64,000 bases of DNA, taken from a bacterium. GTDB lineage: Bacteria > Electryoneota > RPQS01. This document shows positions 49,563 to 59,611 of the stretch, piece after piece. Where the stretch lies: positions 342,806 through 406,805 of the forward strand of contig JAHDVH010000003.1 in the NCBI GenBank assembly GCA_023382385.1, read 5' to 3'. Within the stretch, counting starts at the first letter, position 1, and each line of letters opens with the position of its first letter. Under the pieces are notes generated by a model. It was not told the DNA's origin. It saw nothing but the letters and a program-made list of their open reading frames with translations, and did no database searches. Position numbers and translations under genes: made by a program.

Positions 49563-49591
49563 TTGACAAGCTTGACTGCAATTTGTATATT
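49563..49591 (+). promoter_or_regulatory. sigma-70-type promoter of the sulfur operon
   Basis: TTGACA and TATATT with 17 nt between them. The predicted transcript starts near 49598, about 25 nt before the ArsR start. Confidence 0.75.
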
Positions 49592-49599
49592 CAAATATT

Positions 49600-49613
49600 C
49601 AATTGATTAATTG
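49600..49613. promoter_or_regulatory. possible ArsR autoregulatory operator
   Basis: CAATT-GATT-AATTG inverted repeat at the predicted transcription start. Together with the adjoining ATATTCAAATATTCAA it resembles AT-rich ArsR-family operators and lies just before the arsR-like gene. Confidence 0.45.
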
Positions 49614-49622
49614 AGACAAGAA

Positions 49623-50309
49623 ATGACACATTTTGATCGTCTGCGCGACAACCTAAGTTCAGAATTCTCCAAAATTGGCAGAGTCCTCTCCAGCCCTAAG
49701 CGAATTGAAATCATTGAGTTGCTGTTCCAGTGTCCCAAGAGCGTCGAGACACTTGCCGAGAATACCGGAATGAGTCTCGCCAATACTTCCCAGCATCTAC
49801 AAGTGCTGAGAGGCGCCGGAATGGTCGAGGCCCAAAGGAGCGGCACCTACATGATTTATCAGCTCGCGAGTCCGCTCGTCCATGAGTTGGTCAGTATGGT
49901 TCGACAGGTCGCCGAGACGCACCTTGCCGATGTGGACAGAGCGCTCGCCAAAATCAGAGAAGGCACGACAGACCTCGAGAATATCGATCGCACACAGTTG
50001 ATGCAGCGCGCCAAGGAGGGCAAGGTTATCGTCTTGGATGTCCGCCCGCAGGACGAATATAATGCCGCCCATCTGCCATTTGCGGTGTCAATCCCGCTCG
50101 CAAAACTTGAGAAGCAGTTGGCGACTCTGCCGCGCGACCAGCAAATCGTCGCCTATTGCCGGGGACCATATTGTCTGCTGGCCGGCGAAGCCGTTCGCCT
50201 GCTCAAGCACAAGGGTTTCAAAGCAACTCACATTCGTGATGGAGTCGGCGAGTGGAAAGCACATGGACTCCCTTTGGAAACAGGCTCCGAAAAAGGGTCC
50301 GAAAAGTAA
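49623..50309 (+). CDS. ArsR-family repressor fused to a rhodanese domain
   Basis: 228 residues. Residues 10-95 form an ArsR winged HTH (SSPKRIEIIELLFQCPKSV, GMSLANTSQHLQVLRGAGMV). Residues 120-220 are a rhodanese domain with VLDVRPQDEYNAAHLP and active Cys in AYCRGPYC. This fusion is known in bacteria and fits a sensor of reactive sulfur that is read by the rhodanese cysteine (inference). An ATG at 49623 is preferred over the TTG at 49611, which sits inside the possible operator. It opens the sulfur island. Confidence 0.9.
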   Translation: MTHFDRLRDNLSSEFSKIGRVLSSPKRIEIIELLFQCPKSVETLAENTGMSLANTSQHLQVLRGAGMVEAQRSGTYMIYQLASPLVHELVSMVRQVAETHLADVDRALAKIREGTTDLENIDRTQLMQRAKEGKVIVLDVRPQDEYNAAHLPFAVSIPLAKLEKQLATLPRDQQIVAYCRGPYCLLAGEAVRLLKHKGFKATHIRDGVGEWKAHGLPLETGSEKGSEK

Positions 50310-50338
50310 ACCTTCTAAACTAAGAATAGAAAAGAATC

Positions 50339-50701
50339 ATGGGACTGATTGAAAAGCTCTTCGGAAGTTCGAAGGGCGTAAAACCGCTTGAAACAAGCGA
50401 TGAGACGTTTGAGACAGATGTATTGAACTCTGACCTGCCGGTGATGCTCGACCTCTGGTCGCCGGGCTGCATGCCCTGCCAGGTTCTGGGCGGAATGCTC
50501 AGGGAACTTGCACCCGAGTATGCGGATCGAGTCAAAATCCTCAAGCTGAATGTCTCGCAGAATATGCAGACAGCTATGAAATTTCAGGTGCGCGGGGTTC
50601 CGACAGTGCTGTTCTTTAAGAAAGGCAAAGTCGTTGACCAGATGGTGGGACTTGCTCCCATGGATGTTCTGCGTCAGCGACTTGATCGTCTGGCGGCCTA
50701 A
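50339..50701 (+). CDS. thioredoxin with CMPC active site
   Basis: 120 residues with the thioredoxin fold. The redox motif is GCMPC rather than WCGPC: Trp and Gly are replaced while both cysteines remain. The cis-proline GVPT is intact. It is preceded by a 29-nt gap from the ArsR-rhodanese gene and followed by the octaheme cytochrome, so it may act on sulfane sulfur or cysteine persulfides in this island rather than as a general reductant (inference). Confidence 0.85.
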   Translation: MGLIEKLFGSSKGVKPLETSDETFETDVLNSDLPVMLDLWSPGCMPCQVLGGMLRELAPEYADRVKILKLNVSQNMQTAMKFQVRGVPTVLFFKKGKVVDQMVGLAPMDVLRQRLDRLAA

Positions 50702-50744
50702 GCCGGAGAATCATTAGCACACACTCTCACACGACCTCTTTTGT

Positions 50745-52310
50745 ATGCGACGACTTCTCTTTTCACTGGCATTGCTCTCCGCACTGATCATGCTGGTGAT
50801 AAACATACTGCCGGAACCGGGCGGCGAACGCACTCCGCATGAGATACTGCGAGCAAAACACTCGGTAACGCGCAAGCCATCCGTTGATCACGCGAAGTTC
50901 TCCGTGCTGGACGGACCCTTCGAAAATCCTCAAGACGTCACCCGTGTCTGCATCTCCTGCCACACGGAACGGCACATTGAGGTGATGCAATCCTCACACT
51001 GGAACTGGGAACGCATCGAATACATCGAAGGTAAAGGCATCCGCAAAGTTGGTAAGAAGAACATCCTGAATAACTACTGTATCGGGATTTCCGGAAACGA
51101 GCAGGCATGCAACCGCTGTCATATCGGATACGGTTACGGCGATGCTTCGTTCGACTTCAAGAATCCCTACAATGTGGATTGTCTGGCCTGTCACGACCAA
51201 AGCAATCTCTACATGAAGGCCGGCGCCGGAATGCCTGACCCGAATGTGGACCTTGCAAAAGTGGCAAAAGACGTCGGGGCGCCGACGCGCACCAACTGCG
51301 GAACCTGCCACTTCTTCGGTGGCGGCGGCAATAACGTGAAGCACGGTGATCTTGAGATGGCGCTGTTCGAGCCGTCGCGTGAAATGGATGTGCATATGGC
51401 AGTCGACGGCGTGAATATGCAGTGTGTGGCCTGTCATACTGCGGAACAGCACCAAATGCTGGGTAAGCTGTATTCCGTATCTTCAATGAATCGCGACCGT
51501 GTTTCATGTGAAACATGCCACGGCGGTCTGCCGCACGCAGACAAGGTTTTGAATAATCACACGCTTAAAGTCTCCTGCCAGACCTGCCACATTCCAACCT
51601 ACGCAAAAGACCATCCGACAAAACTGCAATGGGATTGGTCCACGGCCGGCCAGCTGCAAGACGGCAAACCATTCAGTCAGGTGGATGACCAGTTAGGTGT
51701 CGAAACCTACATGTCCACCAAGGGTTCATTTGTCTGGGGCAAGAACATCAAACCTGAATATGCATGGTTTAACGGCACGGCTTCGCATTACTTGCTCGGG
51801 GATACTTTTGATCCGGCGGATACGCTGCAGATGAATTCGCTCCGCGGTTCGTACGACGATCCCGACGCGAAAGTTGTTCCCGTCAAGATACATCGCGCGA
51901 AGCAGATCTACGACGTAGAACATAACTACCTGATTCAGCCGAAGACTGTCACAAATCATCCCGGAGACAGCGCGTTCTGGAGAGAGTTTGACTGGCAACG
52001 TGCGTCCGCCGCAGGCATGCGTGAAGTCGGACTTCCCTACAGCGGCAAGTTTGATTTCGCGCAGACTGTGATGTACTGGCCGATTAACCATATGGTCGCG
52101 CCGGCCAGCAAGTCCGTGACATGCGCTGAGTGTCACACGCGCCAAGGCGGGAGACTTGAGGGCCTGAACGATTTTTATATGCCGGGCCGCGATCGTGTGT
52201 TATGGATTGATCGGGCGGGAGCAGGACTTCTGGTGTTGACCATTCTCGGCATATTGGTTCACGGTACCGCACGCTTTATCGTATCGCGCAGACGGAACGG
52301 GGGACACTAA
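50745..52310 (+). CDS. octaheme cytochrome c, tetrathionate-reductase (OTR) family
   Basis: 521 residues with an N-terminal signal anchor (LLFSLALLSALIMLVINILP) and a C-terminal membrane helix (AGAGLLVLTILGILVHGTA). Eight CxxCH sites: CISCH, CNRCH, CLACH, CGTCH, CVACH, CETCH, CQTCH, CAECH. The arrangement NxxxCGxCHFxGGGGNNVKHGDL is characteristic of the octaheme tetrathionate reductase family described from Shewanella, which reduces tetrathionate and, in vitro, nitrite and hydroxylamine. A membrane cytochrome b starts one base after its stop. With rhodanese and thiosulfate-transport genes around it, a sulfur-oxyanion substrate is likely. Confidence 0.88.
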   Translation: MRRLLFSLALLSALIMLVINILPEPGGERTPHEILRAKHSVTRKPSVDHAKFSVLDGPFENPQDVTRVCISCHTERHIEVMQSSHWNWERIEYIEGKGIRKVGKKNILNNYCIGISGNEQACNRCHIGYGYGDASFDFKNPYNVDCLACHDQSNLYMKAGAGMPDPNVDLAKVAKDVGAPTRTNCGTCHFFGGGGNNVKHGDLEMALFEPSREMDVHMAVDGVNMQCVACHTAEQHQMLGKLYSVSSMNRDRVSCETCHGGLPHADKVLNNHTLKVSCQTCHIPTYAKDHPTKLQWDWSTAGQLQDGKPFSQVDDQLGVETYMSTKGSFVWGKNIKPEYAWFNGTASHYLLGDTFDPADTLQMNSLRGSYDDPDAKVVPVKIHRAKQIYDVEHNYLIQPKTVTNHPGDSAFWREFDWQRASAAGMREVGLPYSGKFDFAQTVMYWPINHMVAPASKSVTCAECHTRQGGRLEGLNDFYMPGRDRVLWIDRAGAGLLVLTILGILVHGTARFIVSRRRNGGH

Positions 52311-52970
52311 ATGAAACGCGAATTAGTCTATCCGGTCTTTGAACGCTTTTGGCATTGGACGCAGGCCGCGCTGATTATTCTGTTAGGTGTCACAGGCTTC
52401 GAAATTCACGGTTCACTCCATTTCTTCGGGTTCCGGCAGGCGGTCAACATTCACTCTGTCGCAGCCATCGCATTTCTGATCCTGATCTGCTTCGCCGTGT
52501 TCTGGCATTTAACCAGCGGTGCGTGGCGACAGTATCTTCCCACATCCACTAACATCAGGGCGCAAGTGGACTATTACGTAACGGGCATTTTCCGCGGCGC
52601 TCCGCATCCGACGAAGAGAAGCGTGCTGAGCAAGCTCAACCCTTTGCAGAAACTCGTCTATGCCGGGCTGAAGGTCCTGGTCATTCCCCTGATGGTCACG
52701 ACCGGTCTTATCTACATGTTCTATCGCTATCCGCAGCAATATGAAGTCATCAGTCTGAATATTGAAGGGCTGTCTGTGGTGGCGGCAATTCATACGCTTG
52801 GTGCGTTCCTCTTGGTCACATTTCTGATTGCACACCTCTACTTGACGACCACCGGCACCACGCCCACTGCAAACCTCAAGGCCATGGTCACAGGCTACGA
52901 AGACCTGCCCGACGAGCAGGCCGTCGCACACGAACGAAATCTCCTGCTAAAAACGGAAACGGTTAGCTGA
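52311..52970 (+). CDS. di-heme membrane cytochrome b (b561/PhsC-like)
   Basis: 219 residues with four transmembrane helices and paired histidines (ERFWHWTQ, VNIHSVAAI, VFWHLTSG, AIHTLGA, LIAHLYLT). It belongs to the cytochrome b561 / thiosulfate reductase cytochrome b group that moves electrons from quinol to a periplasmic cytochrome. It abuts the octaheme gene and overlaps the next start (TGATG), so it is the membrane partner of the octaheme protein. Confidence 0.9.
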   Translation: MKRELVYPVFERFWHWTQAALIILLGVTGFEIHGSLHFFGFRQAVNIHSVAAIAFLILICFAVFWHLTSGAWRQYLPTSTNIRAQVDYYVTGIFRGAPHPTKRSVLSKLNPLQKLVYAGLKVLVIPLMVTTGLIYMFYRYPQQYEVISLNIEGLSVVAAIHTLGAFLLVTFLIAHLYLTTTGTTPTANLKAMVTGYEDLPDEQAVAHERNLLLKTETVS

Positions 52971-53491
52971 TGGAACACCGTACAACCAAATACATGAACC
53001 CGTATCTGGCAGGTTTCCTGCTCGGACTGGTTCTCTTAGGAAGCATCTTCATTACGGGGCGTGGACTCGGTGCCAGCGGCGCAATCAAGGATACGATTGT
53101 GTCCGTTGTGAGCGGCATCGCTCCTGAGCATGCCGCGGAGTCGCCCTACTACGGCCCGCTCATCGCCGATCAAGAGCACAGTCCGATGAAATCCTGGCTC
53201 GTGTTTGAGCTAATCGGCGTGCTGATCGGTGCCTTCGTATCCGGACTGATCTCAGATCGGCTCGGCTTTCGCAGCGAAGGCGGACCACGAATTCAGAACA
53301 AAACACGCTGGATGTTCGCGGTCATGGGTGGTGCGCTGTTTGCCATCGGTGCGCAGTTCGCCCGAGGCTGTACAAGCGGAGCTGCCTTAAGCGGTATGGC
53401 CGTGCTTTCCACCGCCGGCTTTGTGACCATGCTGGCGATTTTCGGAACGGGGTATCTGGTCGCTTTCTTTTTCCGCAGATTGTGGATCTGA
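52970..53491 (+). CDS. YeeE/YedE-family sulfur transporter, first half
   Basis: 173 residues with four or five hydrophobic segments. The motif ARGCTSGAALSG contains the conserved cysteine of the YeeE/YedE (TsuA) thiosulfate transporter family. In TsuA two such halves are joined; here the second half is the next gene. The start overlaps the cytochrome b stop by one base. Confidence 0.87.
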   Translation: MEHRTTKYMNPYLAGFLLGLVLLGSIFITGRGLGASGAIKDTIVSVVSGIAPEHAAESPYYGPLIADQEHSPMKSWLVFELIGVLIGAFVSGLISDRLGFRSEGGPRIQNKTRWMFAVMGGALFAIGAQFARGCTSGAALSGMAVLSTAGFVTMLAIFGTGYLVAFFFRRLWI

Positions 53492-53509
53492 ACAAACGGG
53501 AGCTGTTCC

Positions 53510-54697
53510 ATGGGACCATTTGTGCCGGATCCAATCTCTTTTGAGCTAAACTTAGTTATCGCGTTGCTGATAGGTATCGCCTTTGGATTCGTTCTCGAGC
53601 AAGCCGGCTTCTCTTCGTCACGCAAACTTGCCGGACTGTTTTACGGATATGACTTCACGGTGTTGCGGGTCTTCTTCTCAGCGGCCGTCACGGCTATGGG
53701 CGGAATTCTGCTATTAGGCTTTGCAGGCTTACTCGACACGGAGGCAATATACATTAATCCGCTCTGGTTGTGGCCAGCTGTCGTCGGTGGAGCCATCATG
53801 GGTGTTGGTTTTATTCTCGGAGGATACTGCCCGGGGACCAGCTTCTCAGCTGCGGCAATTGGTAAAATTGATGCGTTGTTCTTCATCGGTGGGCTGTTTC
53901 TCGGAGTGTTTGTCTTTGCCGAGATGTTTCCTGCCTGGGAAGAGTTCTATTACTCGTCGGCCTTCGGACCCGTCAGAGTCTTTGACACTTTGGGACTCTC
54001 GATCGGCTGGTTCGCGTTCTTGCTGATTGTTATCGCGCTCTCCGCATTCGCCGTCACCAGCTGGATTGAGAAGCGCGTTAGCGCAAGTGCCCCGTCACGG
54101 CAATTCCGCTTGCGTCCCCACTCCATCGCCGCCGTAGCCACCGTGCTCGCCGGCGTGCTGCTGATTTCGCTGCCGGATAGGAAGTCGCGCGTATTGGCAA
54201 TGGTCACAGCAGCCGAGCACCTCGCCGCGTGTGAGACTGCGTTCATGACAGCCGATGAACTCGCCTTTCGGATTATTGACCGCGAACCGAACATTCAAAT
54301 CGTTGACGTGCGCGATTCTGCTGCCTTCAACTCGTTCGCTCTGCCCGGAGCGATGAACATTCAAGTCCGTAATCTGTTCGACAAGGAATGGAATCGCCTG
54401 TTTGCACGCAGGCACGTCAAGAAGGTGCTGGTTGCCGAACACGAGAGTGACGCAATTGCAGCGTATCACGTTCTGGATGAGCTGGGATATTCCAACCTCG
54501 CTGTCCTCCAAGGTGGCCTGCCTCTCTTCAAGCAGGACATCTTATCCGAATCAACGCATGAAGCCGTGCCGCTTCACGAAGATGTAGCTGAATTTCGCAT
54601 GAGTGCGCGAGAGACTATCAATAAACTCATCGAACAGGAACGGCAGAAACCTCCCGCTGTGGAGAAGAAGCCCAAGAAGGTGATTGGCGGCTGCTAA
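53510..54697 (+). CDS. YeeE/YedE-family transporter half fused to a rhodanese-like domain lacking the active cysteine
   Basis: 395 residues. The N-terminal 190 residues form the second YeeE half with GGYCPGTSFSAAA, its conserved cysteine. About 205-225 is a further membrane helix. The last 150 residues are rhodanese-like (IQIVDVRDSAAFNSFALPGA), but the active-site loop reads VAEHESDAI with no cysteine, so the domain probably binds rather than transfers sulfur. The final residue is Cys (VIGGC). A GGGAG site precedes the ATG. It completes the sulfur island. Confidence 0.85.
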   Translation: MGPFVPDPISFELNLVIALLIGIAFGFVLEQAGFSSSRKLAGLFYGYDFTVLRVFFSAAVTAMGGILLLGFAGLLDTEAIYINPLWLWPAVVGGAIMGVGFILGGYCPGTSFSAAAIGKIDALFFIGGLFLGVFVFAEMFPAWEEFYYSSAFGPVRVFDTLGLSIGWFAFLLIVIALSAFAVTSWIEKRVSASAPSRQFRLRPHSIAAVATVLAGVLLISLPDRKSRVLAMVTAAEHLAACETAFMTADELAFRIIDREPNIQIVDVRDSAAFNSFALPGAMNIQVRNLFDKEWNRLFARRHVKKVLVAEHESDAIAAYHVLDELGYSNLAVLQGGLPLFKQDILSESTHEAVPLHEDVAEFRMSARETINKLIEQERQKPPAVEKKPKKVIGGC

Positions 54698-55035: not shown

Positions 55036-56175
55036 GTGAAGAAAAAGTATATCATCGGCTGGCTGCCCGGTGACGGAGTCGGCATTGAAGTTCTGGAAGC
55101 TGCGAAGATCGTGCTCGACCGCTTGGATTTTGACGCCGAGTACATTCATGGCGACATCGGCTGGGAATTCTGGTGCAAAGAAGGCGATGCCCTTCCGCAG
55201 CGCACGATGGATTTGCTCAATCGTGTCGATGCAGCGATGTTCGGCGCAATCACTTCAAAACCCGCCAAACTGGCCGAGAAGGAACTAATTCCCGCTCTGC
55301 AGGGCAAAGGCATGACGTATCGCTCGCCTATCGTGAGAATGCGCCAGTCGTTTGATCTGTATATCTGTTTGCGGCCCTGCAAGTCGTATCCCGGAAACCC
55401 GCTGAACTTCAAAGAGAATATTGATCTCGTCGTGTTCCGCGAGAATACCGAAGACTTATATGCGGGCGTCGAGTTCGCGCCTGTTCCCGATGAACTGAAA
55501 GACACGCTCTTGAAACTCTCAAAGCCGTTCAAAGCGTTCGATGGAATTGCCCCAAGCGACTATGCCGTATCGTGCAAGATCAACACGCGCAAAGGCTCCG
55601 AACGCATCGTCAAGGCGGCCTTTGACTACGCGCGCAAACACGGGCGCAAGAAAGTCACGGTCGTGCACAAGGCGAACGTCGTCCGCGCGGCTGACGGACT
55701 GTTTCTGGATGTGGCGCGCGAAGTGGCTGCCAACTATCCGGAAATTACCTTTGACGAAGCGAACGTGGATGCCATCATGATGTGGCTGCTGAAGAATCCA
55801 TTTAACTATGACGTGCTGGTTGCACCCAATCTCTATGGTGACATTGTCAGCGACCTGTGCGCACAGTTGGTTGGCGGATTAGGCTTCGGCTGCTCCGGCA
55901 ATATCGGAACAAAACTTGGCGTCTTTGAACCCACACACGGATCCGCCCCGAAATATGCCGGACAATACAAGGTGAATCCGATCGCCACGATACTTTCGGC
56001 AAAGCAGATGCTCGAGTGGCTCGGCGAAATCGAGCTTGCAAAGCTCGTTGAGAAGGCCGTCGCCGAAGTGATCAAAGAAGGCAAGGTACGAACCTACGAT
56101 ATGGGCGGTTCGAATACGACGCTGGAAATGGGTCAAGCCATCGCCGACAAACTTCCCGCACTTATGACGGCTTGA
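55036..56175 (+). CDS. isocitrate/isopropylmalate-family beta-decarboxylating dehydrogenase
   Basis: 379 residues. PGDGVG opens the fold, ENTEDLYAG and HKANVVRAADGLF follow, then the family signature NLYGDIVSDLCAQLVGGLG and the nucleotide site PTHGSAPKYAG. The enzyme oxidises and decarboxylates a 2-hydroxy-3-carboxy acid using NAD(P). The substrate loop RMRQSFDLYICLRP differs from usual LeuB sequences, so isocitrate, homoisocitrate, 3-isopropylmalate and 3-methylmalate all remain possible. It leads an operon that also contains the aconitase-family isomerase expected to make its substrate. Confidence 0.88.
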   Translation: MKKKYIIGWLPGDGVGIEVLEAAKIVLDRLDFDAEYIHGDIGWEFWCKEGDALPQRTMDLLNRVDAAMFGAITSKPAKLAEKELIPALQGKGMTYRSPIVRMRQSFDLYICLRPCKSYPGNPLNFKENIDLVVFRENTEDLYAGVEFAPVPDELKDTLLKLSKPFKAFDGIAPSDYAVSCKINTRKGSERIVKAAFDYARKHGRKKVTVVHKANVVRAADGLFLDVAREVAANYPEITFDEANVDAIMMWLLKNPFNYDVLVAPNLYGDIVSDLCAQLVGGLGFGCSGNIGTKLGVFEPTHGSAPKYAGQYKVNPIATILSAKQMLEWLGEIELAKLVEKAVAEVIKEGKVRTYDMGGSNTTLEMGQAIADKLPALMTA

Positions 56176-56179
56176 GCTG

Positions 56180-57091
56180 ATGAATTCCTTGATCCTTCAT
56201 GAAGTCGGGCTGCGCGACGGGCTGCAAATGGAAAAGCAGGTCGTCCCGCTTGACACCAAGATTCGCTGGGCCGAACAGATGATCGATGCCGGCGTGGACA
56301 TTCTCCAGCTTGGCTCCTTCGTGCATCCTGAAAAAGTCCCGCAAATGGCCGATACGGATGCGCTGTTCAACTACTTCAACGAACCGGGAAGAAGACCCGC
56401 CAATGTTACTCTCTCCGGTCTTGTCCTGAATGAAAAAGGACTGGATCGCGGGATGGCCTGTGGTGTGGACATGTTCTGCATGGGAGTCTCGGCAAGTGAA
56501 ACGCACAGCAAGAAGAACACCGGCATGACCGTAGCTGAGGCGACTGATCGTATTATCGGCGCAGCTAAGGCCGCGCTGTCCGCAGGCAAACGCGTGCAAG
56601 TATCCGTTCAGTCTGCTTTCGGCTGCGGCTTTGAAGGTGCTGTGCCCGCCTCGCGTGTGCTGGGAATTCTCGACAAATACTTCGAAGCAGGCCTGAACGC
56701 GGTCTCCCTCGCGGATACTGCGGGCCACGCTCTGCCCGAACAAGTCGAAGCTCTGTTCTCTTCAGTATACAAGATGAATCCGCAGGCGGAATGCGCCTGC
56801 CACTTGCACAACACCTACGGTCTCGGATTGGCCAACTGCCGCGCGGCGATGAATGCCGGCGTAAGAATATTCGAGTCCGCCATTGCCGGCCTTGGTGGCT
56901 GTCCGTTCACAAAAGTCGCCGGCGGAAACGTCTGCACGGAAGACCTTGTTCACTATTGGCAGCGCGGCGGTTCACGCACTGATCTGGATTTGCCAAAATT
57001 GATTCAGACGGCTCAAGATCTGGCCAGCTACTTCGGCCGCGAGATGCCCGGCTTGGTCTACAAGTCCGGACCGGTCAATTACGCCGCATAA
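56180..57091 (+). CDS. HMG-CoA-lyase-family enzyme
   Basis: 303 residues. The metal and catalytic motifs of HMG-CoA lyase are all present: EVGLRDGLQ near the start, the HLHNTYG metal ligands, and the catalytic Cys241 in GLGGCPFTKVAGGNVCTEDLV. The family splits 3-hydroxy-3-methylglutaryl-CoA to acetyl-CoA and acetoacetate; relatives act on citramalyl-CoA. It begins 4 nt after the dehydrogenase gene and is followed by a CoA-transferase, so the acid it cleaves may be activated by its neighbour. Confidence 0.88.
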   Translation: MNSLILHEVGLRDGLQMEKQVVPLDTKIRWAEQMIDAGVDILQLGSFVHPEKVPQMADTDALFNYFNEPGRRPANVTLSGLVLNEKGLDRGMACGVDMFCMGVSASETHSKKNTGMTVAEATDRIIGAAKAALSAGKRVQVSVQSAFGCGFEGAVPASRVLGILDKYFEAGLNAVSLADTAGHALPEQVEALFSSVYKMNPQAECACHLHNTYGLGLANCRAAMNAGVRIFESAIAGLGGCPFTKVAGGNVCTEDLVHYWQRGGSRTDLDLPKLIQTAQDLASYFGREMPGLVYKSGPVNYAA

Positions 57092-57112
57092 ACTAACTGT
57101 AACATAACTGCT

Positions 57113-58306
57113 ATGAAATTGCTTGAAGGTATTCGCGTCCTCGATCTGACCAACGTGCTCTCCGGCCCCTTTGCCACATTGCATCTGGCACTCGCAGGTG
57201 CGGACGTGATCAAAATTGAAAATCCGACGGACGGCGATCTCGCGCGCAAGCTCGGCTGTGTTCCCGATTTTAACAAGAAGCTGATGGGAACAAGTTTCCT
57301 CGCACAGAACGCGAACAAGCGCTCCCTGACTCTAAACCTGAAACAGCCTGCGGCCAAAGAAATCTTCAAAAAGCTCGTCAAGAACGCCGACGTGGTGGTG
57401 GAGAACTTCCGGCCCGACGTGATGAAGCGGCTCGGACTCTCATATGAAGTCTTGTGTGAGATTAACCCCAAACTCATCTACTGCGCCATCTCCGGCTTCG
57501 GTCAAACAGGGCCCGACGCGTTCAAACCCGCCTACGACCAGATTATTCAGGGATTGTCCGGCGAAATGGCCATCAACGGAGACGAGCGGCTGCATCCTCT
57601 GCGTGCAGGGTTTCCGATCTGCGATACGGTCGGCGGACTGAATGCCGCTTTTGCCGTGATGGGAGCGCTTTACTATCGCGAGCGCACGGGTGAAGGCCAG
57701 TTTATTGACGTTGCACTCCTCGACTCGATCATGCCGCTTATGGGCTGGGTCGTCGCCAACTGGATGATTGGACAGCAGCATCCCGTTCTGATGGGCAATG
57801 AAAACTTCACAGCCGCTCCCTCAGGTGTGTTCAAGACCAAAGACTGCTACATCAATATCGCCGCCAATAAACAGGAACAGTGGGAAGCCCTGGCGGATTT
57901 GGTCGGTGTGCCCGAACTTAAGACCGATCCGCGTTTTCAGGAGCGTGATGCTCGCAAGAAGAATCGCACGCAACTGACTCCCCTGCTCGAAGCGAAACTG
58001 ATGGAGCGCGAAGGTGCGTTCTGGGTCGAAGAACTGAATAAGCATGATGTGCCGGCCGGATTGATTCTGTCCCTCGAAGACGCCCTGATGCAGCCTCAAA
58101 TCGCACATCGCAAGGCGTTCAACAAGGTCAACGTGGACGGCATCGGTGACTTGGAACTATTCAATCTCACGGCGAAATTCTCGAAAACTCCGGGCGACGT
58201 TACCGCGCCGCCGCCGAAACTTGGTGAACATACCGATCTGCTGCTTGGCGAACTGGGCTACAGCGCCGCGGAGATTGCCAAACTGCGTGAAGACAAAGTA
58301 ATTTAA
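57113..58306 (+). CDS. class III (CaiB/BaiF) CoA-transferase
   Basis: 397 residues. LLEGIRVLDLTNVLSGPFAT and VIKIENPTDGD are the typical opening, and the GEGQFIDVALLDS stretch is near the catalytic aspartate region. The family moves CoA between carboxylic acids without free intermediates, for example succinyl-CoA to citramalate. The short spacing on both sides places it inside the operon. The acceptor acid is not known. Confidence 0.9.
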   Translation: MKLLEGIRVLDLTNVLSGPFATLHLALAGADVIKIENPTDGDLARKLGCVPDFNKKLMGTSFLAQNANKRSLTLNLKQPAAKEIFKKLVKNADVVVENFRPDVMKRLGLSYEVLCEINPKLIYCAISGFGQTGPDAFKPAYDQIIQGLSGEMAINGDERLHPLRAGFPICDTVGGLNAAFAVMGALYYRERTGEGQFIDVALLDSIMPLMGWVVANWMIGQQHPVLMGNENFTAAPSGVFKTKDCYINIAANKQEQWEALADLVGVPELKTDPRFQERDARKKNRTQLTPLLEAKLMEREGAFWVEELNKHDVPAGLILSLEDALMQPQIAHRKAFNKVNVDGIGDLELFNLTAKFSKTPGDVTAPPPKLGEHTDLLLGELGYSAAEIAKLREDKVI

Positions 58307-58324
58307 GATATCAGGAGCAACATA

Positions 58325-59611
58325 ATGCCCATGACGTTAGCAGAGAAGATTCTGGCGCGCGCGGCAGGTCTGCCGGAAACCAAAGCGGGAGACGTGGTCG
58401 AACCGCAGGTGGATCTGGCCATGTCGCACGAGAACGCCGCGCTCGTTCTCCATCAATTCAAGGAAATCTACAAGGGTCTCAATGTCGAGCCGCGCGTGTG
58501 GGATCCAAGCCGGATCGCGATCATTTTCGATCATCGTGTCCCCGCCGAAAGCTCGAAAACCGCGACGAACCAAAAGCGCGTGCGCGATTTCGTCGGCGAA
58601 CAAGGCATCACGAAATTCCACGACATTCGAGGCGACCAAGGCGGCATCTGCCATCAGATTCTGCCCGAATACGGCTACGTGCGCCCGGGTGCCGTCGTGG
58701 TCGGCACGGACAGCCACACCACCACTCACGGAGCGCTTGGCGCGTTTGCCTTTGGCATCGGTGCGACGGAAATGGCCAGCGTCTGGGCACTCGGATCCGC
58801 GCTGAACATCGAGGTGCCCAGAACCATCAAAGTCGAAATCAACGGCGCCTTGTCAAATTTTGTGTCCGCAAAAGATGTGATCCTCTATCTCATCGGACTG
58901 ATCAAAGCCAACGGTGCCAACTACCGCGCGCTTGAGTTTCACGGCTCGACGATCCGCAATATGTCCACGTCGTCGCGGCTGGTGCTTTGCAACATGTCCG
59001 TCGAAGCCGGCGCGACGGTCGGCATGGTTCCACCCGATGTCGAAACCAAGCGCTACCTGCGCGACGAAGCGAAAGTCTCCGACACCCTCTGGATGGAATC
59101 ACCCGATGCCGATGCGGACTATGAGCGTGTCGTTCAGATTGATGCAAACAAACTTGCCCCGCAGATCGCCTGCCCGCATACGGTGGACAATGTGAAGCCT
59201 GTGACCGACATTAAGGGAAAGAAAGTCGACCAAATCGTGATCGGATCCTGCACCAACGGACGGCTTGACGATCTTGCCGCAGCCGCATCGCTGATCCGCA
59301 CAAAGAAAGTGCATCAACGCACGCGCATGCTCGTCTTCCCCGCGTCGTGGAATATCTACAAAGCGGCCATGGAGCGCGGCTATCTGAAAGACTTCGCCGA
59401 TGCCGGTGCCGTCGTCATGAATCCCGGCTGCGGCTGCTGCTTGGGCGTGCATCAAGGCGCGCTGGGCGATGGTGAAGTGTCGCTTTCGACAACCAATCGC
59501 AACTTCAAAGGCCGTATGGGCAATCCGAATGCTGAAGTGTTTCTCTGTTCGCCGGAAGTGGCCGCTGCCAGTGCCATTCGCGGCGAAATCACCGACCCGA
59601 GAGAGGTGTAA
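58325..59611 (+). CDS. aconitase/isopropylmalate-dehydratase-family large subunit
   Basis: 428 residues, close to archaeal-type LeuC/homoaconitase large subunits and much shorter than full aconitases. The [4Fe-4S] cysteines are in GSCTNGR and GCGCCLGVH. The HTTTHGALGAF and FDHRVPA motifs of the active site are present. It dehydrates and rehydrates a branched hydroxy-acid together with the next gene product. AGGAGC precedes the ATG. Confidence 0.92.
   Translation: MPMTLAEKILARAAGLPETKAGDVVEPQVDLAMSHENAALVLHQFKEIYKGLNVEPRVWDPSRIAIIFDHRVPAESSKTATNQKRVRDFVGEQGITKFHDIRGDQGGICHQILPEYGYVRPGAVVVGTDSHTTTHGALGAFAFGIGATEMASVWALGSALNIEVPRTIKVEINGALSNFVSAKDVILYLIGLIKANGANYRALEFHGSTIRNMSTSSRLVLCNMSVEAGATVGMVPPDVETKRYLRDEAKVSDTLWMESPDADADYERVVQIDANKLAPQIACPHTVDNVKPVTDIKGKKVDQIVIGSCTNGRLDDLAAAASLIRTKKVHQRTRMLVFPASWNIYKAAMERGYLKDFADAGAVVMNPGCGCCLGVHQGALGDGEVSLSTTNRNFKGRMGNPNAEVFLCSPEVAAASAIRGEITDPREV

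Follow-up and report, generated by a model that had tools for sequence, protein, structure and literature searches.

An octaheme OTR-family cytochrome in a conserved operon with a cytochrome b, a split YeeE transporter and a cysteine-tipped tail: a candidate respiratory sulfur-compound reductase

Introduction

Genome papers often cite the octaheme tetrathionate reductase OTR as either a tetrathionate or a nitrite reductase. In this work, we analyzed an OTR gene and its neighbors in a stretch of 64,000 nucleotides, hereafter the window, that comprises positions 342,806 to 406,805 (forward strand) of contig JAHDVH010000003.1 in assembly GCA_023382385.1, from a bacterium of the Electryoneota. The 2.9 Mb genome carrying the window is referred to as the host, its relatives as host phylum and host family. 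OTR is found here in an operon together with a cytochrome b and the two halves of a YeeE transporter, YeeE-A and YeeE-B, the latter ending in a Gly-Gly-Cys (GGC) tail. OTR, YeeE, rhodaneses and Phs are already known; new are the operon and the shared cysteine-tipped cassette. Open PMC full texts, to which our search extended (subscription literature lay outside it), yielded no description of an OTR–cytochrome b–YeeE operon or of the GGC tail, and in the one paper that has both 'octaheme tetrathionate reductase' and 'YeeE' the YeeE passage deals with a different locus.

The OTR of Shewanella oneidensis (PDB 1SP3, TIGR04315) is described in PMC4484225 as a soluble enzyme that obtains electrons via CymA/STC and uses heme II as its catalytic heme. 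The window protein shares with it eight CXXCH hemes, the lysine at the catalytic heme and homology over the full length, but features hydrophobic N- and C-terminal segments, an Asn for Asp150, a cytochrome b of its own and a YeeE/rhodanese cassette. An OTR with adjacent cytochrome b has been noted in Thermosulfurimonas dismutans (PMC4911364), and in Candidatus Sulfomarinibacter, a marine member of the Acidobacteriota, tetrathionate is reported to raise otr transcripts 36-fold (PMC8528874). The view taken in an earlier note on this DNA, made from its sequence alone, that OTR is known mainly as an isolated enzyme was hence too strong.

PhsABC/PsrABC operons with YeeE-A, YeeE-B and a rhodanese have the same downstream cassette, cysteine-tipped tail and membrane quinol subunit. 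Their catalytic part, however, consists of a molybdenum (Mo) protein, an iron–sulfur (FeS) protein and NrfD, whereas in the window it is made up of OTR and a cytochrome b561. YeeE/TsuA, found with YeeD/TsuB, likewise belongs to PF04143 and has two invariant cysteines, one per half. In contrast, the window version is split over two genes in swapped order, has an added rhodanese-like domain and the GGC tail, has no TsuB-like gene nearby and scores far under the TsuA cut-off. The YTD cluster of sulfur disproportionators also ties a YedE/YeeE-family transporter to anaerobic sulfur metabolism, but according to PMC12998232 it contains TusA, DsrE-like and conserved hypothetical proteins, whereas the window operon has OTR and cytochrome b instead. 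Finally, SoxY has a flexible C-terminal extracytoplasmic arm with a Cys beside glycines (GGC/GGCGG), for which a sulfur-carrying role in Sox is described (PMC11237559, PMC6067878). The canonical SoxY motif is given as VTIGGC (PMC11237559), and the window protein ends in KKVIGGC; here, however, Pfam gives no SoxY match, and the arm belongs to a YeeE–rhodanese fusion or, in other loci, to a rhodanese lipoprotein.

Results

OTR, cytochrome b, YeeE-A and YeeE-B follow each other in this order in 72 of 89 evaluable loci, i.e., in 57/68 loci of a named set, in 9/10 of the host phylum including the window, and in 6/11 of other phyla. By record titles and tree labels, this ordered core is distributed over about eight phyla (Bacteroidota, Ignavibacteriota, Chlorobiota, Acidobacteriota, Planctomycetota, Myxococcota, Armatimonadota and the host phylum). 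Cultured bacteria with the operon include Mariniphaga anaerophila DSM 26910, Carboxylicivirga linearis and Gaoshiqia sediminis (L053, L068 and L074). The named set was the best 80 of 538 confirmed OTR matches in GTDB genomes and thus leans towards the clade of the window; less four duplicates of host-phylum loci it holds 76 loci, 68 of which have at least 2.5 kb downstream. In the host phylum, 15 of 39 genomes had an OTR at E<=1e-60 (10 loci evaluable), and the other-phylum set comprises the OTRs of 12 genomes outside the host phylum (11 loci evaluable) from a 386-genome survey with a match in 27 genomes. Two plasmid records, from Paracoccus and Photobacterium, were surveyed as well; L121 (OTR split) and L150 (weak match) were left out, and L107, L109, L111, L114, L120 and L143 were not evaluable. 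Neighborhoods were counted from profile matches on stop-to-stop open reading frames (ORFs), allowing a 30-base overlap; a codon-scored gene caller was unreliable for high-GC loci. The single operon claimed in the earlier note is thus borne out, with six contiguous plus-strand genes in the window and a core that is found again and again elsewhere.

In a tree of OTR proteins with 104 rows, YeeE and/or rhodanese genes were near OTR in 91 rows. The YeeE label requires 5 changes on this tree versus 24 when shuffled, and it is found both in the large clade of the window and in a separate soluble group. Rhodaneses were present in 9 of the 11 named loci that lack the complete core, typically in the layout Crp/Fnr – OTR – cytochrome b – rhodanese lipoprotein – rhodanese – porin – rhodanese. 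At the other end of the window operon, the ArsR-rhodanese gene upstream of OTR occurs only in the host family (window, L111 and L118), and an adjacent same-strand thioredoxin gene only in the window and L111. Both were therefore dropped as candidates for the conserved core. What the earlier note had called constant sulfur genes consequently holds for YeeE-A and YeeE-B, along with cytochrome b, but not for the ArsR-rhodanese and the thioredoxin.

Some loci show other arrangements. In six of the other-phylum loci (L139, L140, L141, L142, L144, L147), OTR looks soluble and is separated from cytochrome b by an ORF containing seven heme motifs, with the YeeE cassette following; we infer that OTR, when it lacks a membrane anchor, is linked to the membrane by this additional cytochrome. 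In L138, a short cytochrome-like ORF and then NiFe-hydrogenase subunits come after OTR, similar to the arrangement reported for Caldithrix abyssi (PMC5317091). L094 has a single cytochrome b gene flanked by two OTR genes on the same contig. On the Paracoccus plasmid pFER4 (L136), OTR and cytochrome b adjoin genes of the suf/cysteine desulfurase type; a gene for nitrate reductase alpha follows some 8 kb downstream, and neither YeeE nor rhodanese is present.

The terminal Cys of YeeE-B is aligned in 70 of 76 homologs, the remaining six being gaps; an alignment picked for GGC ends (A2) shows an invariant GGC as well, but this is circular and 70/76 is the unselected figure. We compared all ORFs of the OTR loci, overlapping frames included, for a terminal GGC with up to three residues allowed after it. 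On the OTR strand within 5.5 kb, 91 of 1045 ORFs had such an end, compared with 5 of 1858 other ORFs at the same loci (Fisher odds ratio 35, p 2e-35, a p value that overstates independence). The five background ORFs include YeeE-unit proteins beside a PhsA-type gene in L076 and L046 and an L142 ORF with a YeeE-B/psrA neighbor. Counted by locus, a GGC-tailed protein was near OTR in 79 of 89 loci (named 64/68, host phylum 9/10, other phyla 6/11). In Bacteroidota operons without YeeE, the tail is carried by a lipoprotein rhodanese that has a CK/RKGxR loop and a lipobox whose Cys is invariant or, in L098 and L102, by a two-domain rhodanese. The tail thus follows OTR across protein architectures.

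In the window protein, the tail is disordered and rich in Lys and Arg, and tails of YeeE-B homologs have an average net charge of +3.7. An AlphaFold2 model of YeeE-B (mean predicted local distance difference test, pLDDT, 87.7) has a helix at residues 201–220 before the rhodanese domain and coil from residue 379, with a pLDDT of 42 in the last block; in a model of the lipoprotein rhodanese the tail pLDDT was below 50. Foldseek comparison of the YeeE-B model with the PDB gave only rhodanese-type folds in its best rows, with no YeeE structure among the best 50. In Pfam, YeeE-B matched Sulf_transp and Rhodanese only, and no SoxY domain. Its rhodanese-like domain has no conserved Cys and would thus not qualify as an active rhodanese, the active-site loop of which we take to be CRxGx[RT]; the lipoprotein rhodaneses, in contrast, do have this loop. 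Loop charges of YeeE-B alternate, with a mean of +2.4 in the loop before transmembrane helix (TM) 6 and −0.3 in the stretch after it, as expected with the rhodanese domain outside. From its sequence, this domain is hence apparently extracytoplasmic. Of the 33 stand-alone rhodaneses ending in xGC, 32 start with a hydrophobic segment, and a lipobox-like motif is present in 15.

We also surveyed the cassette in reverse. The YeeE-B profile matched 56 of the 386 genomes, and 20 loci without adjacent OTR, hand-picked from these matches, were examined. A PhsA-type molybdenum subunit was beside YeeE in 12 of them, usually in the order PhsA–FeS–NrfD–YeeE-A–YeeE-B–rhodanese, and in 18 a Cys was within the last four residues of the YeeE-B or rhodanese ORF, mostly as -EGC and sometimes as -GGC. 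Two of the loci, L202 and L203, touch contig edges and may be cut OTR operons, and in L207 the tail is on an 89-residue ORF and doubtful. The PhsA-type proteins best match the thiosulfate reductase PRK15488 with 455–495 bits, under its cut-off of 694. With the YeeE/rhodanese cassette beside both OTR and PhsA-type proteins, two unrelated reductases thus have one sulfur-handling cassette in common. The window operon itself contains no Mo-bisPGD subunit; host matches to PF00384 are NarG, an ACIII-type subunit and a probable NuoG, all encoded elsewhere. L101 has both types on one contig, a PhsA–FeS–NrfD–YeeE cassette and then an OTR–cytochrome b–rhodanese–porin–rhodanese operon, each with its own GGC tail. 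In L189, L190 and L205, YeeE-A/B and proteins ending in -EGC, -AGC or -DGC stand beside another rhodanese, with neither OTR nor PhsA detected, and the cassette may therefore have other clients.

The window OTR is a full member of its family. It matched TIGR04315 over profile positions 1–440 of 440 with 584.2 bits (cut-off 375), aligned end to end with 1SP3 (E=5.9e-137), scored 222 bits for Pfam Cytochrome_cB and has the eight CXXCH motifs that define an eight-heme OTR. Lys199 aligns with the lysine that in 1SP3 ligates the catalytic heme, presumably K153, and is the predicted heme ligand here. Across 106 OTRs, this lysine and Asn109 are present in all proteins and Cys112 in 105. The window protein continues for 57 residues past the last heme motif. 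OTRs of its clade mostly have about 50–75 residues there, with a hydrophobic segment included, and those of the soluble-looking group about 21–39.

The cytochrome b was found in 83 of 89 evaluable loci. Its best NCBIfam match is PhsC-type, with 102.9 bits under a cut-off of 204; His33 and His48 are kept in 92/92 and His161 and His175 in 90/92 homologs. The two YeeE genes, both well above the Sulf_transp gathering score of 27, encode the halves of the domain in swapped order. Cys134 of YeeE-A is kept in 77/77 and Cys107 of YeeE-B in 76/76 homologs; in YeeE-B, only Cys107, Cys113 and the terminal Cys are kept at 60% or more. With 41.7 bits versus a cut-off of 400, the pair falls outside the TsuA equivalog, and no TsuB/YeeD (TusA-type) protein was matched within 6 kb of OTR in 105 loci (E. 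coli TsuB seed, blastp E<=1e-5). It also lacks the YTD partners, as there was no TusA-type match near OTR and no DsrE among the six operon proteins, for which no separate search was made. The whole host genome has just two YeeE pairs (four matches); in view of this rarity, the ordered core in 72/89 loci exceeds what coincidence would give. The second pair (L122, contig C1, about 975000–988615) has halves without a GGC tail, and its neighbors, named by eye, are a persulfide dioxygenase-rhodanese-like protein and then an apparent cytochrome oxidase cluster.

In the window, the operon consists of six same-direction genes on the plus strand (49611–54697) with intergenic gaps of −1 to 43 bp (Table 1). 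A malic enzyme-phosphotransacetylase gene lies upstream on the opposite strand, and the downstream neighbor begins 338 bp past the operon end. All six genes listed in the earlier note are real, but it overlooked that the last gene encodes a C-terminal rhodanese domain and ends in -GGC, that the YeeE halves are swapped and that OTR has hydrophobic terminal segments. The start chosen there, 49563, coincides with a promoter-like site, but such sites are no more common in the region than expected by chance. An Rfam scan of the window gave no match. Downstream, at 55036–59611, genes for isocitrate/isopropylmalate dehydrogenase, an HMGL-like lyase, a class III CoA-transferase and an aconitase-family protein resemble a CoA-linked di/tricarboxylate pathway.

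Table 1. Features of the OTR operon, in window coordinates
Feature	Position	Strand	Basis
Promoter-like site TTGACA-17-TATATT	49563..49591	+	Consensus scan 11/12; 3 sites in region versus 3.6 expected by chance, hence weak
ArsR-family regulator fused to rhodanese domain, CRGPYC active-site loop	49611..50309	+	Pfam HTH_5 41.5 bits, Rhodanese 55.8 bits
Thioredoxin, CMPC motif	50339..50701	+	PF00085 80.5 bits
Octaheme cytochrome c, OTR family, hydrophobic N- and C-terminal segments	50745..52310	+	TIGR04315, 1SP3, 8 CXXCH
Lys199 codon of OTR	51339..51341	+	Alignment to 1SP3 lysine; kept in 106/106 OTRs
Cytochrome b561-type membrane subunit, probable quinol oxidase of the chain	52311..52970	+	PF01292 (Ni_hydr_CYTB) 97 bits
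YeeE half A, C-terminal half of PF04143	52970..53491	+	Sulf_transp 62.3 bits, profile 174-309 of 310
YeeE half B (N-terminal half of PF04143), one more TM helix, rhodanese-like domain and GGC tail	53510..54697	+	Sulf_transp 59.3 bits, Rhodanese 39.3 bits
Rhodanese-like domain of YeeE-B, without conserved active-site Cys	54281..54535	+	PF00581 on residues 258-342
Terminal Gly-Gly-Cys of YeeE-B, residues 393-395, proposed mobile sulfur arm	54686..54694	+	Terminal Cys 70/76 homologs; tail pLDDT 42, coil

Discussion

Gene content and gene order of the OTR operon are conserved, as are its ligands, cysteines and tail, and the cassette is common to PhsA-type operons. We propose, with a probability of roughly 0.6, that the operon encodes a quinol-driven periplasmic respiratory sulfur-compound reductase that is built from heme instead of molybdenum, a heme counterpart of PhsABC equipped with a cysteine-arm relay and YeeE. 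A sulfur compound as the substrate class is well supported. Judged from the sequence, the exact compound would be tetrathionate or another polythionate, or else thiosulfate/polysulfide; tetrathionate reductase activity of the window OTR is putative. Published observations lend independent support: the 36-fold rise of otr transcripts with tetrathionate (PMC8528874), the OTR with adjacent cytochrome b in Thermosulfurimonas dismutans (PMC4911364), and lucinid symbionts, in which otr is reported to adjoin soxY-S3/soxZ (PMC11237559) and, we infer, the part of the GGC tail could be played by a genuine SoxY arm. The quinol route through cytochrome b put forward in the earlier note is supported. In the host genome, NIR_SIR (the DsrAB/sulfite reductase family) had no match, and with its Mo-bisPGD proteins limited to NarG, the ACIII-type subunit and the probable NuoG, OTR is the sole candidate found for a respiratory sulfur-compound reductase.

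Several observations weigh against this proposal. Shewanella OTR is described to reduce nitrite, hydroxylamine and tetrathionate alike in vitro (PMC4484225), and Caldithrix, a carrier of Otr, reportedly does not grow by sulfur, polysulfide or thiosulfate respiration (PMC5317091). In L071, Pfam-confirmed NrfAH stand beside OTR. Both plasmid OTRs, from Paracoccus and Photobacterium, have a cytochrome b, but YeeE, rhodanese and GGC tail are found at neither (ordered core and tailed protein 0/2 each), and 4 of the 11 other-phylum loci have neither YeeE nor rhodanese; the cassette is thus not universal in the OTR family. Furthermore, where 1SP3 has Asp150, 92 of 106 OTRs, the window protein among them, have Asn, and the chemistry may hence differ from that of the Shewanella enzyme. 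We had also considered this Asn as a marker of the window clade, which was dropped in view of its wide occurrence, with Asp scattered over separate branches.

The operon might alternatively serve sulfur uptake along with detoxification or assimilation. OTR would then clear periplasmic polythionates and YeeE import thiosulfate as a sulfur source, with little energy conserved. Import of thiosulfate is described for E. coli YeeE/TsuA (PMC11073785), and the upstream ArsR-rhodanese and thioredoxin resemble sulfane-sulfur stress genes. We nevertheless consider this rather unlikely, given the dedicated quinol-type cytochrome b in 83/89 loci, the occurrence of the cassette in PhsA–NrfD respiratory operons and the absence of a TsuB/YeeD homolog within 6 kb in all 105 loci.

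Reduction of nitrite or hydroxylamine, i.e., ammonification, with the sulfur genes as bystanders or as a protection from sulfide toxicity, is unlikely. The in vitro activities of the Shewanella enzyme and the NrfAH genes adjoining the operon in L071 would fit such a role, which has also been proposed for OTR in NrfA-less bacteria (PMC5276818, PMC6896113). However, when the 6 kb around OTR were searched in 105 loci with E. coli seeds for NrfA, NapA, NapC, NapH, NrfD and Hcp, NrfA was matched in one locus only, L071, NapH in two and Hcp in none. NapA-seed matches occurred in six loci, and every one of them was positive for the PhsA-type profile, too. Nitrite reduction was therefore rejected as the principal role on the rarity of nitrogen genes near OTR as detected with these seeds, among which HAO had none of its own. 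Moreover, the host encodes NarG (1529 bits, cut-off 1084), NrfA and NrfH elsewhere in its genome, so that OTR is not needed for nitrite, and the YeeE/rhodanese/GGC context is found again over deep OTR branches. The earlier note had argued for a sulfur compound from the neighboring genes, and that expectation held: OTRs of this clade do not stand mostly with nitrogen genes (NrfA 1/105), whereas YeeE and/or rhodanese neighbors are frequent (91/104), which makes a sulfur compound the likelier class.

The system could also run in the oxidizing direction, with OTR, similar to SoxXA, loading thiosulfate or sulfane sulfur on the GGC arm and electrons passing to quinone. The arm does resemble the GGC arm of SoxY (PMC11237559, PMC6067878), and the soxY neighborhood of otr in lucinid symbionts would fit as well. 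Yet the tetrathionate/thiosulfate couple is high, at +198 mV as quoted in PMC8528874, which means that electron flow to menaquinone would be uphill. Besides, soxB, soxCD and soxXA were not among the frequent annotated neighbor families, although no search was aimed at them, and this direction is improbable. Selenite or another chalcogen oxyanion as natural substrate is improbable, too: putative selenium transporters belong to the YeeE/YedE family (TIGR04112 weak match) and rhodaneses near the PsrA-like SrrA are reported to mark selenite reducers (PMC8528874), but the PhsA-type neighbors best match the thiosulfate reductase PhsA, though under its cut-off, and nothing selenium-specific turned up, with selD and fdhT not searched for.

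In the quinol-driven sulfur-compound reductase that we propose, cytochrome b would oxidize quinol and deliver the electrons to membrane-anchored OTR, which would reduce its substrate at the Lys-ligated heme. YeeE-B would expose its rhodanese-like domain and a mobile, positively charged and Cys-ended arm on what is probably the periplasmic side. In analogy to SoxY, we propose the GGC tail as a sulfur-carrying arm, as its motif is kept and the tail disordered. Sulfur species used or set free by OTR might be taken up by this arm, which would carry sulfur between OTR, the rhodanese site and the YeeE-A/B channel with its Cys134 and Cys107; the channel in turn may bring sulfur species into the cytoplasm, if the presumed direction of flow is correct. 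There, in the host family, the ArsR-rhodanese would sense the sulfur species and the thioredoxin reduce it.

The cysteine arm is the least expected and the most testable element of the operon. We may tentatively go one step further and speculate that the physiological substrate of OTR is sulfur covalently bound on a SoxY-like periplasmic GGC arm, which would present a thiosulfonate or persulfide to the reductase and return sulfur to the YeeE channel. Such an arm would have arisen on at least two architectures, the YeeE–rhodanese fusion and the rhodanese lipoprotein, and would be common to PhsA-type reductases. If true, respiratory sulfur reductases would in general have a 'cysteine-arm relay', which would also explain the ambiguous results of OTR assays with free substrates. 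For the OTR family, the conserved operon, with its sulfur channel and a probably periplasmic arm tipped by a cysteine, argues for sulfur on a genome-wide scale. Should the arm carry sulfur, channeling of a substrate by a protein arm, known from Sox oxidation, would extend to sulfur-reducing respiration, heme- and molybdenum-based alike.

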